A stretch of 37,487 bases of DNA from Patescibacteria group bacterium (GTDB lineage: Bacteria; Patescibacteriota; JACPGU01): positions 1 through 37,487 of the forward strand of contig JAQULF010000009.1 in the NCBI GenBank assembly GCA_028718745.1, read 5' to 3'. A program made the translations under genes and the position numbers. Positions 18,210-34,351 of this stretch are shown here, piece after piece. The notes below the pieces were generated by a model. It was not told the origin of the DNA. It worked only from the letters and a program-made list of their open reading frames with translations, and did not search any database. Within the stretch, counting starts at the first letter, position 1; every line of letters begins with the position of its first letter.

Positions 18210-18230
18210 CAAGTCTTTCTATTGTTTGTT

Positions 18231-18253
18231 GGTTCCGAGTTATACTCGGAACC
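18231..18253. repeat. Palindromic repeat, family P2, left member of doublet
   Basis: ggttccgagt-tat-actcggaacc, preceded by gtt. Confidence 0.8.
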
Positions 18254-18286
18254 CTGATGTACCAAAAAGTATTTTAGGATCATCAT

Positions 18287-18309
18287 GGTTCTGGGTGCAA
18301 CCCAGAACC
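18287..18309. repeat. Palindromic repeat, family P2, right member of doublet, inverted
   Basis: ggttctgggt-gca-acccagaacc, followed by aac. Confidence 0.8.
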
Positions 18310-18366
18310 AACACAAAAGGATGACAGTAAAAAATATGCTATAATAATTTTAAGGAGGTTTATTAT

Positions 18367-31206: not shown

Positions 31207-32673
31207 ATGACCAAAATCGAAAACCACTCCATAAAAATTGTAAGTATTTTAAACAAGGCCGGTTATACGGCCTATTTTGCCGGTGGGTATGTGAGAGACA
31301 AAATTATGAAGAGAAAGGTAAATGATATCGATATTGCTACGAATGCTAAACCTGCCGAAATTAAGAAAGTTCTCGATAAAAACAAGATTAAACACATTGA
31401 AATAGGAGAAAGTTTCGGCGTGATCGCGGCCGTAATTCCGCTAACTAAAAATACTAATGAGATTTTCGAGATTGCCACATTTCGGCAGGATTTCGGGGTA
31501 AGCGACTCCCGCCATCCGCAAAAAGTTAAGTTTTCGTCAGATCCCAGAGAAGATGCGGTGAGAAGGGATTTTACAATTAACGGCTTATTCGCCACCAATC
31601 AAAAAATATCCAATATCCAATATCCAATATCCAAACAATTTTCAATATCCAATACTCAATTTTCAATAATTGATTTTGTAGGTGGTTTAGCTGATATAAA
31701 ATCCAAAACCATCCGCTTCATCGGCGATCCCAATGAGCGAATCAAAGAAGACGCGCTTCGCATGATGCGAGCAGTAAGGTTTGCTTGTCAATTAGACTTT
31801 CAAATTGAGCCTAAAAGTTTTGAAGCCATTAAAAAAAATCACGATTTGATCAAAAAAGTTTCGCAAGAGCGAATCCGCGATGAGTTAAATAAAATTATGG
31901 CCTCAAATAGTCCAAGGTGGGGGATGGAACTACTGGACGAAACCGGACTTCTCGAATACATTATTCCGGAACTTATAGCTGGAAAAGATGCTCCACAACC
32001 TGCAAATTATCATTTTGAAGGAAGTGTTTGGAATCACACCTTGCTCTCCTTGGATAAACTAACTAAAGTGCCGACGGTTTTGAAAAATAAAGGCTATGAT
32101 CATGTTTTGGCTCTGGCGGTTTTGCTTCACGATATTGGCAAGCCGGCAACTATTATGCTGCCGAAAGAAACGGGCGATCGCATTCGCTTTAATAGCCATG
32201 ATGTCGTTGGCGCAAAGATGGCGGCCTCAATTTTACGCCGCTTGAAATATAGCAACGAAGAAACGGACAAAGTTTTTTGGCTGATCCGAAATCACATGCT
32301 TTTTTCTTCACTTTTTAAAATGCGTGAAGCCAAACGGATCAGATTTTTAACTCACCCTTGGTTCCCGGATTTACTCAAGGTTTTTTGGGTGGACGCAAAT
32401 AGTTCAGTCAGAAGTTTTAAGGGTAAACCGCTTCCTCCGGAGCTTTTTGCTTACAATAAGGGCAAAACATTTCTGGAGAAAGAAAAGAAGAAGCCTCGCC
32501 TTCCCAAACCTTTTTTGCGGGGTGAGAATATCATGAAAATTATGGGGATAACTTCCGGAAGCAAATTGGTTGGCGAGATCTTACGCAAGATTTATGACGC
32601 GCAGTTAGAGAAAAAAGTGAAGACGAAGAAAGAGGCAATGGATCTGGCAAAAAAGCTGTTGAAGAAAAAATAA
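31207..32673 (+). CDS. cca: CCA-adding tRNA nucleotidyltransferase with HD domain
   Basis: AGGYVRDKIMKRKVNDIDIATNAKP, REDAVRRDFTINGLF, DALRMMRAVRFACQLDF, VLLHDIGKP. Confidence 0.94.
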   Translation: MTKIENHSIKIVSILNKAGYTAYFAGGYVRDKIMKRKVNDIDIATNAKPAEIKKVLDKNKIKHIEIGESFGVIAAVIPLTKNTNEIFEIATFRQDFGVSDSRHPQKVKFSSDPREDAVRRDFTINGLFATNQKISNIQYPISKQFSISNTQFSIIDFVGGLADIKSKTIRFIGDPNERIKEDALRMMRAVRFACQLDFQIEPKSFEAIKKNHDLIKKVSQERIRDELNKIMASNSPRWGMELLDETGLLEYIIPELIAGKDAPQPANYHFEGSVWNHTLLSLDKLTKVPTVLKNKGYDHVLALAVLLHDIGKPATIMLPKETGDRIRFNSHDVVGAKMAASILRRLKYSNEETDKVFWLIRNHMLFSSLFKMREAKRIRFLTHPWFPDLLKVFWVDANSSVRSFKGKPLPPELFAYNKGKTFLEKEKKKPRLPKPFLRGENIMKIMGITSGSKLVGEILRKIYDAQLEKKVKTKKEAMDLAKKLLKKK

Positions 32674-32694: not shown

Positions 32695-33000
32695 ATGGAA
32701 AAAGATCTGGTTACAAAATTACACAAAAACTTTGAGGATTACGCTCACGATCAAAATGGGACGGAGTTTTGGTATGCGCGAGACTTGCAAAAACTACTCG
32801 GCTATAATGAATGGAGAAATTTCGAAAGCGTAGTTGAAAAAGCAAAAATAGCATGTTCTGGTGCAAAACAAGCCATTTCCGACCATTTTGTTGGCGTCAA
32901 CAAAATGGTCGACTTAGGGTCCGGAAGTCAGCGAGAAGTTAACGATATTATGCTTACTCGCTATGCATGCTATTTAGTTGGTTCAAAGCTCCTGCTTTGA
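32695..33000 (+). pseudogene. DinD-like gene, N-terminal part, truncated by RAYT element
   Basis: FEDYAHDQNGTEFWYARDLQKLLGYNEWRNFESVVEKAKIACSGAKQAISDHFVGVNKMV...ITRY-type segment; last residues SKLLL* encoded by the repeat. Confidence 0.8.
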
Positions 33001-33638
33001 ACCATAAATGTACAATAACGAATTTAAAAATCATTTAAATAAAAATAAAATGTCTTCATTAAGAATTCATCAAGAAAATGAAAACGCTCCGCACTTTATC
33101 ACTTTAACTATAATAGAATGGTTAAACATTTTTACCCAAAAAGAATATTTTAATTGCGTAATAGAGTGTCTGAAGTTTTCTCAAAAGAATTTAGGATTAT
33201 TGCTTTATGAATATGTGATTATGACCAATCACATTCATTTGATTGTTCAAGCAAGGGAAGGCTATCAATTATCAAAAATAATTCAAAGCTTCAAACAATT
33301 TACTACAAAAGAAATACTTAAACTTTTAGAAACCGACAGAAGAAAATATATATTACGAATCTTAAACAACAGTTTTAGTAAGAGATCAGTCAATCAGATT
33401 TGGCAGGAGACAAATTATCCTGAATTAATTGAATCTGAAAAGTTTCTTCAACAAAAGATTGATTACATATATAACAATCCGGTTATCAAAGGATATGTAG
33501 ATGAACCACAACATTATCTTTATTCTTCTGCCAGAAACCGATATTTAGATGATAATTCAATCATTGAACTTGATAACTTAGTTTACGAATAAACTTCATA
33601 ATGTACATAGTGGTTCAAAGCAGGAGCTTTGAACCAAC
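32977..33638. mobile_element. RAYT element bounded by inverted palindromic repeats (family P2)
   Basis: Left gttggttcaaagctcctgctttgaacca...tgtaca; right tgtaca...tggttcaaagcaggagctttgaaccaac (exact inverse). Confidence 0.88.
33008..33592 (+). CDS. REP-associated tyrosine transposase (Y1_Tnp), second type
   Basis: HFITLTIIEWLNIFTQ, VIMTNHIHLIVQA (HUH), QKIDYIYNNPVIKGYVDEPQHYLYSSARNR. Confidence 0.93.
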   Translation: MYNNEFKNHLNKNKMSSLRIHQENENAPHFITLTIIEWLNIFTQKEYFNCVIECLKFSQKNLGLLLYEYVIMTNHIHLIVQAREGYQLSKIIQSFKQFTTKEILKLLETDRRKYILRILNNSFSKRSVNQIWQETNYPELIESEKFLQQKIDYIYNNPVIKGYVDEPQHYLYSSARNRYLDDNSIIELDNLVYE

Positions 33639-33709
33639 AAAGAAGAATTAAAAGCAAAATCAAATCCGAAAATAAGAAACTAACAAAAAATACGAAGAAA
33701 TTAAAATAA
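33638..33709 (+). pseudogene. C-terminal remnant of the DinD-like gene
   Basis: QRRIKSKIKSENKKLTKNTKKLK*, resembles a DinD C-terminal tail. Confidence 0.5.
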
Positions 33710-33758
33710 AAATATCATTGAAGAAAAAATAAGAGAGAGTAGAATGAAAATACAGAAT

Positions 33759-33829
33759 GTAGTTGGTAGCAGGTAGTAGGTATTATGGATTTTGTTTTCC
33801 ATGCTACTTACTACATACTACTTACTACC
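33759..33829. repeat. Degenerate GTAGTA/CTTACTAC inverted-repeat tract
   Basis: gtagttggtagcaggtagtaggta...ccatgctacttactacatactacttactacc. Confidence 0.65.
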
Positions 33830-33835
33830 AAATTT

Positions 33836-34351
33836 ATGCCAATTATCAAAAACAAGGAACAGCGCGTCGCCGTTTTCGTCGATGTGCAAAACATGTATTA
33901 TACCGCCCGCCATCTTTACCAGTCGAAGGTGAATTTTGGAACTATTTTAAAAGAGGCGGTAGGGGATAGAAAGTTAATTCGCGCTATTGCTTACGCGGTC
34001 AAAGCGCAAATGCCGGAAGAGAAATCCTTTTTTGACGCTTTGCAAAAAAGCGGCTATGAAGTTAAAACCAAAGACCTCCAGATTTTTCCGGATGGCACCA
34101 AAAAAGCAGACTGGGATGTGGGGCTGGCTATGGACATAATAAGGATGGCGCCCAACATTGATTCAATTATTCTAGTTAGCGGAGATGGCGACTATATTCC
34201 TTTAGTTGAATATCTACAAAATCATGGCAAATTGGTTGAAGTAGTCGCTTTTGGCAGAAGTTCCAGCCAAGCGCTAGTCAACAAAGCTGATGATTTTTTT
34301 GATTTGGAAAAAATTTCAAGGAAAATACTTTTGCGGTTTAGAACGAAATAG
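33836..34351 (+). CDS. NYN domain (LabA/DUF88) protein (ATG 33836 preferred over 33785)
   Basis: VAVFVDVQNMYYTARHLY, KADWDVGLAMDII, SIILVSGDGDYIPLVEYLQNHGKLVEVVAF. Confidence 0.92.
   Translation: MPIIKNKEQRVAVFVDVQNMYYTARHLYQSKVNFGTILKEAVGDRKLIRAIAYAVKAQMPEEKSFFDALQKSGYEVKTKDLQIFPDGTKKADWDVGLAMDIIRMAPNIDSIILVSGDGDYIPLVEYLQNHGKLVEVVAFGRSSSQALVNKADDFFDLEKISRKILLRFRTK

Follow-up and report, generated by a model that had tools for sequence, protein, structure and literature searches.

A RAYT gene between inverted REP hairpins in a split dinD gene: a candidate transposable unit in a Patescibacteria genome

The dinD gene at positions 32695–33709 of the window (the whole 37,487-nucleotide stretch that was analysed, contig JAQULF010000009.1 of a Patescibacteria group bacterium) is broken by a RAYT gene lying between two inverted REP hairpins. 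We consider it likely that this is a compact transposable unit which landed in an acquired dinD gene, and that the short gene-less REP pairs (REPINs) of the genome were moved in trans. From the anatomy of the units we infer their mobility as whole units; the strand-transfer chemistry, mobilisation in trans and the cause of the deletion in dinD are likewise inferred.

The RAYT unit and the broken dinD gene

The unit spans 32977–33638 on the forward strand (662 bp) and consists, in order, of GTT, a hairpin, ATGTACA, the RAYT open reading frame, TGTACAT, the inverted hairpin and AAC, with ends like those of the three other RAYT units of the genome. The original prediction had placed a hairpin-bounded element at 32695–33709; the element is there, but those limits are those of the whole broken dinD gene and 32977–33638 is the better description. 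Each REP is 27 nt long and comprises GTT, a perfect 10-bp stem and a TCCT loop. The left REP (32977–33003, + strand), next to which lies the conserved inner ATGTACA, has its GTT at 32977–32979 and the hairpin GGTTCAAAGC-TCCT-GCTTTGAACC at 32980–33003. This is the exact reverse complement of the right hairpin, GGTTCAAAGC-AGGA-GCTTTGAACC at 33612–33635, which is followed by AAC at 33636–33638 and makes up the right REP (33612–33638, − strand), identified by repeat analysis and with REP model R1. Exact inversion had been predicted for the outer ends as a whole, and it holds for the hairpins but not for the inner sequences (ATAAATGTACA and TGTACATAGT), which are merely similar. The left REP scores 63.9 bits with R1, a model that was trained on this REP itself.

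The open reading frame at 33008–33592 (+ strand, 194 aa) scores 97.9 bits against the NCBIfam model NF047646 (REP_Tyr_transpos), above the cut-off of 80, and also matches Pfam Y1_Tnp, in agreement with the predicted HUH transposase between the hairpins. The HUH motif is NHIH (H75, H77), WQ lies at residues 132–133, and Y153 is part of YIYNNP; these motifs are conserved across five aligned relatives (alignment A1), with NHIH and YIYNNP invariant or conserved. The start common to the relatives is probably the ATG at 33050, which would give a protein of 180 aa. A PDB sequence search returned TnpA_REP (4er8) as its sole match.

To the left of the unit, the 5' fragment of dinD (32695–32976, + strand, codons 1–94) matches positions 1–96 of the 288 positions of the DinD model NF008573 (E = 1.5e-39) as well as the Bro-N domain; its 136 bits fall below the full-length cut-off of 242, as for a broken gene. 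This N-terminal part is 67% identical to the closest DinD ortholog found, a full-length protein (L072), and, as predicted, the frame reads on into the REP and ends there in VGSKLLL and a stop codon. To the right, 33641–33709 (+ strand) encodes what had been suspected to be the DinD C-terminal tail, the last 22 codons and the stop (RRIKSKIKSENKKLTKNTKKLK). The suspicion was borne out by alignment to the C-terminus of L072, in which RRIKSKIKSENKKLTKNTKKL pairs with KKLERKLKSEDKKLPETVKKL at 10/21 identities and the stop falls at the homologous place; the BLOSUM62 score of 56 was equalled by none of 5000 shuffles. Approximately 163 codons (~490 bp) are missing between the two fragments. A search of the assembly for this lost middle part, also foreseen, gave just two other dinD paralogs (35% and 53%). 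DinD orthologs of other genomes, the proposed check, are mostly full length. A second truncated dinD homolog of 174 aa is encoded at G000:C1:55851 (L014), directly followed by a GNAT-like open reading frame.

The broken gene is flanked upstream by a CCA-adding tRNA nucleotidyltransferase gene (31207–32673, + strand; Pfam PolyA_pol, PolyA_pol_RNAbd and HD) and downstream by a gene for an NYN-domain protein (33785–34351, + strand; PF01936, 129.7 bits). These two genes adjoin each other in both family relatives that were compared (G001 and G002), where the NYN orthologs are 84–87% identical and the gene order CCA transferase, NYN, nuclease, FtsA-like is the same. Both dinD and the RAYT gene are absent from the short spacer between CCA transferase and NYN in these two genomes, and dinD is therefore an accessory gene at this site; the comparison is with relatives that have no dinD here at all. 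The RAYT unit within dinD at this site is found only in the present genome of the three, and related RAYTs of other genomes occupy other contexts, so that the conservation of the arrangement which would have spoken against the original prediction was not seen.

The decay of dinD could have preceded the unit: if its middle was lost before the RAYT gene arrived, or in a donor before transfer, the unit would merely mark a gap. The accessory status of dinD at the locus and the truncation of the C1:55851 copy fit such a history, but both fragments end exactly at the unit ends, are still open and retain the ancestral stop, which would require a coincidence, and we regard it as doubtful. It is very improbable that the structure is an artefact of assembly, with reads of different REP units joined or the middle of dinD collapsed between near-identical units. 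REPs occur at ~40 places in this 28-contig assembly, which would provide opportunities for such errors; against this, the middle of dinD is on no other contig and the contig join is judged sound because CCA transferase and NYN are adjacent in both relatives.

A 15-bp direct repeat, TTGAAGAAAAAATAA, at 32659–32673 and 33718–33732 was considered as a target duplication and rejected, since the right copy was matched upstream of NYN in G002, is ancestral there and thus gives no evidence of duplication; the repeat may mark the place where dinD was acquired, or be due to chance. Two further features of the locus were observed. An AT-rich run (ATCCAATATCCAATATCC...) at 31610–31680, in the frame of the CCA transferase, encodes NIQYPISKQFSISNTQFSI and has the look of a low-complexity insertion that keeps the frame. 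An imperfect inverted repeat of TAGTAGG/CCTACTA-like units at 33763–33831, in the interval that separates the dinD tail from NYN, is a possible terminator or another type of repeat.

RAYT units, REPs and REPINs elsewhere in the genome

The genome contains three more RAYT units, at C6:14550–15335, C4:32931–33585 and C18:2862–3502. Together with the unit in the window (C9) they have the same end geometry, starting GTT/GG and ending CC/AAC, measure 641–786 bp and lie in four unrelated flanks. The C9 and C6 units have one REP type in common and different flanks; C4 and C18 each have a stem sequence of their own. The RAYT copies are 57–82% identical to the first, and the catalytic motifs are intact in all four. 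The C6 and C4 genes were at one point taken for broken, with one TAA inside, a reading that was dropped because the TAA is the gene's own end and 4/4 open reading frames are intact. Units with shared boundaries in unrelated flanks, accompanied by REPIN-like miniatures, are what the suggested search for further copies yielded, and they uphold the view of the element as a self-contained candidate for a mobile RAYT.

The covariance model R1 identifies 40 REPs in the 0.89 Mb of the assembly; since it was trained on REPs of this same genome, its E-values here are not independent, and independent support comes instead from stem covariation and from the same bracket in other genomes. Across 28 REPs, 100% of the stem cells are paired and 6/10 pairs are changed on both sides, a degree of compensation reached in 0/500 shuffles. 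The foot GTT(G) is present in all REPs of the genome that were inspected. At least 13 inverted REP pairs of 85–112 bp enclose no gene and are REPIN-like, and there are several solo REPs. Most of the gene-less pairs read as internally deleted RAYT units with the same ends and inner sequences, the REPINs sharing ~55 bp of left end and ~45 bp of right end with the RAYT unit. One of them, an 85-bp REPIN of the C18 sequence type, lies in the window at 18228–18312 (R1 matches at 18228, + strand, and 18312, − strand), 19 bp ahead of an open frame beginning at 18331.

The RAYT gene of the C6 unit (G000:C6:14581–15279, L015) contains a 39-aa in-frame insert, placed between the HUH and Y motifs and absent from C9, C4 and C18, which corresponds to two further REP hairpins with the loop TTTAAT. 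Inactivation of the gene by a nested REPIN was ruled out as an explanation: the insert is in frame, the open reading frame stays open, and an in-frame REP insertion within tnpA_REP has been described as a trait unique to subclass 2.4 (PMC6006769).

Solo REPs were also seen in frame inside three genes (G000:C1:125705, C1:87051 and C4:26663; L027, L129 and L130), which look like ComF-like, TlyA-like and U32-peptidase-like genes, names read from the protein sequence and not from a family search. By eye, the net gain in length at these three sites seems smaller than a REP plus the inner motif, as if target bases had been replaced. Ahead of another solo REP, at G000:C12:9706 (L024), part of its foot and stem is present a second time (GTTGGTTCAAAGT-GTTGGTTCAAAGC), which may be left over from a strand transfer that was aborted or took place repeatedly.

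Phylogenetic analysis places the C9, C6 and C4 RAYTs in a supported clade (96/94), which is consistent with amplification within the lineage. Monophyly of all four RAYTs of the genome is unsupported (37/23), and that of C18 may be a separate acquisition. In the family relatives, a RAYT of this clade is absent from G001, and G002 has only one of 29% identity. Comparison of C9 with C6 reveals a mosaic of three blocks, about 91% identical on the left, about 60% in the middle and about 98% on the right (Fisher p = 2e-20 for the middle against the rest, p = 0.01 for left against right), a pattern that suggests that units have recombined with each other. In the two outer blocks, dN and dS are 0.062 and 0.41 on the left (ratio about 0.15) and 0.013 and 0.157 on the right (about 0.08). 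Since dN is far below dS, both copies have been kept as working genes under purifying selection, and since the copies are not near-identical (dS 0.16–0.41), movement here would not have been very recent.

Related RAYTs in other genomes and a possible route of movement

Other Patescibacteria, as well as Nitrospirota, Planctomycetota and Chryseobacterium, have RAYTs that are 40–62% identical. Inverted REP pairs of this type accompany several of these genes, in some cases with the TCCT loop (L102, L106, L113 and L110), and in L102, L106 and L113 the gene is bracketed by the inverted REPs. A genome from another Patescibacteria family (G334) carries two RAYT copies that are 95% identical over 585 bp and have different flanks. 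A third copy has lost its 3' half; its 5' half stops where the second unit begins, and the right REP is present twice. At this locus (G334:C5) the second unit lies inside the first, the 3' part of which is gone, a structure that suggests recombination between REPs.

The main rival to movement of the unit is that only REPINs move, so that a REPIN entered dinD and the RAYT gene was then copied into it by gene conversion, its REP ends recombining homologously with a resident REPtron. Gene conversion between units is evident in the C9/C6 mosaic, with its blocks of very different divergence, so a REPIN already in place could also have received a RAYT gene in this way; the end segments shared by REPINs and unit would serve such an event, and according to the literature REPtrons are not mobile as whole units (PMC6006769). 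This explanation would require repeated conversion at four or more REPIN sites, with C4 and C18 having REP pairs of their own. It copes better with the mosaic than with four separate units or with the two G334 copies, whose flanks are unrelated but which are 95% identical along the full length of the unit. We regard it as unlikely.

Movement of the whole unit is favoured in that the ends are identical at unrelated sites, derivatives that have lost the gene exist and the catalytic residues are intact. Following the TnpA_REP and IS608 paradigm, the RAYT protein would bind each terminal REP as a single-stranded hairpin, guided by the GTT(G) foot, with Tyr153 making the cut alongside; the strand lying between the two ends would then be carried to another site, with no duplication of the target. 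Internally deleted units, the REPINs of 85–112 bp, would be mobilised in trans. At the present locus, dinD would first have been gained, between CCA transferase and NYN, and the unit would have landed in it afterwards. Insertion by a Y1 enzyme should not of itself delete target DNA. The loss of ~490 bp would be most simply explained by two neighbouring insertions in dinD whose directly repeated REP ends later recombined. The structure of G334:C5 and the C9/C6 mosaic support such secondary REP–REP recombination, which we put forward tentatively, at slightly less than even odds. For Patescibacteria RAYTs of this clade more widely, the balance tips slightly towards their still being true transposons, in which the unit moves, spawns REPINs and removes stretches of host genes.

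RAYTs have been described as domesticated host genes (PMC8049555), and the RAYT gene studied here could serve the host in REP or single-stranded DNA processing, with its copies being ordinary paralogs. Purifying selection agrees with this view, as does a RAYT found at the same place in G383 and G385 (85% over 1.87 kb), from which it follows that vertical keeping also occurs, in at least one lineage; the syntenic loci align, but at a divergence too high to resolve an exact empty site or a clean pair with and without a REPIN. Ordinary paralogs would not be expected to be multi-copy with exact common ends in unrelated flanks, to disrupt dinD and to be accompanied by miniatures, and we consider domestication as the explanation quite unlikely, although domestication and mobility are not mutually exclusive.

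Relation to known RAYT systems

Judged from its sequence, the unit is one of the REPtrons of RAYT/TnpA_REP, a known family, and belongs to Quentin subclass 2.4 by motif only. As in REPtrons generally, REP hairpins lie on both sides of its gene and recur elsewhere in the genome. YIYNNP and NHIH conform to the class 2 signature of Y---NP plus HUH (PMC6006769), and the NH[IFV]H, WQ and YIxNNP motifs of subclass 2.4 are all present, as is its in-frame REP insertion, in the C6 copy. The protein does not fit IS200/IS605 subclass 1.1 (Y---Q), given YIYNNP and a score of 28.8 bits against NF033573, for which the cut-off is 55. The foot departs from the GT[AG]G of REPtrons, being GTTG in this genome and GCAG in G334; GT[AG]G is not universal among REPtrons, and subclasses 2.6 and 3 are without it (PMC6006769). 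The rule of one full gene per REP type with no movement of the unit does not seem to fit here either, as C9 and C6 share a REP type and the G334 copies are 95% identical. One unit occurs at different sites with precise ends, as expected of a mobile element.

Subclass 2.4 of Quentin 2018 (Bertels group 4) thus shares with the present units its motifs, the REPs that flank the gene and the dispersed REPs, but it is reported to have a mean of 1.5 copies at 40% identity, in contrast to four copies at 57–82% here, and the GTTG foot, the complete brackets in unrelated sites and the Patescibacteria host are further differences. TnpA_REP of E. coli is likewise an HUH-Y1 protein, the PDB relative 4er8, acting with a REP hairpin that has a 5' tetranucleotide foot; E. 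coli differs in having a single REPtron, three REP pairs, a GTAG foot and a bulge in the stem. IS200/IS605 elements (IS608, ISDra2) have in common with these units a Y1 transposase, hairpins at both ends, several copies and a presumed lack of target duplication, whereas here the motif is Y...NP and not Y...Q, the hairpins form an inverted pair and there is no tnpB. The TIRtrons, or TIRYT (Di Nocera 2013), also consist of a Y1 gene between terminal inverted repeats, some of which are repeated in the genome, but these are mostly of subclass 2.1 with a C-terminal HTH, unlike the true REPs with loop and foot found here. Pseudomonas REPINs, likewise paired inverted REPs with a length of about 100 bp, are also presumed to be mobilised in trans; REPINs are few in the present genome (at least 13 pairs), and most can be recognised as RAYT units with an internal deletion.

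What is unusual against the published record is therefore the mobility of the unit, as deduced from anatomy, the GTTG foot and the Patescibacteria hosts; a search of the open-licence literature gave no mention of RAYTs in Patescibacteria. The domestication of bacterial transposases has RAYTs as its standard case, in which the step from mobile IS to domesticated gene is open. If the proposed movement is real, the units would represent a surviving stage on the way from IS200-like elements to domesticated RAYT/REPIN systems, and would contradict the published statements that REPtrons are immobile as a unit and that RAYTs do not copy themselves. REP elements also join the sources of gene disruption in ultra-small Patescibacteria genomes. 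The present genome makes the question of mobility directly testable, with a defined substrate (a 27-nt REP with a GTTG foot) and proteins of about 180–195 aa. The units of G334 would be a good system for unit mobility and for REP–REP recombination; L156 (G334:C5) and L148 (G334:C37) have the foot GCAGG, and three copies are nested or in tandem.
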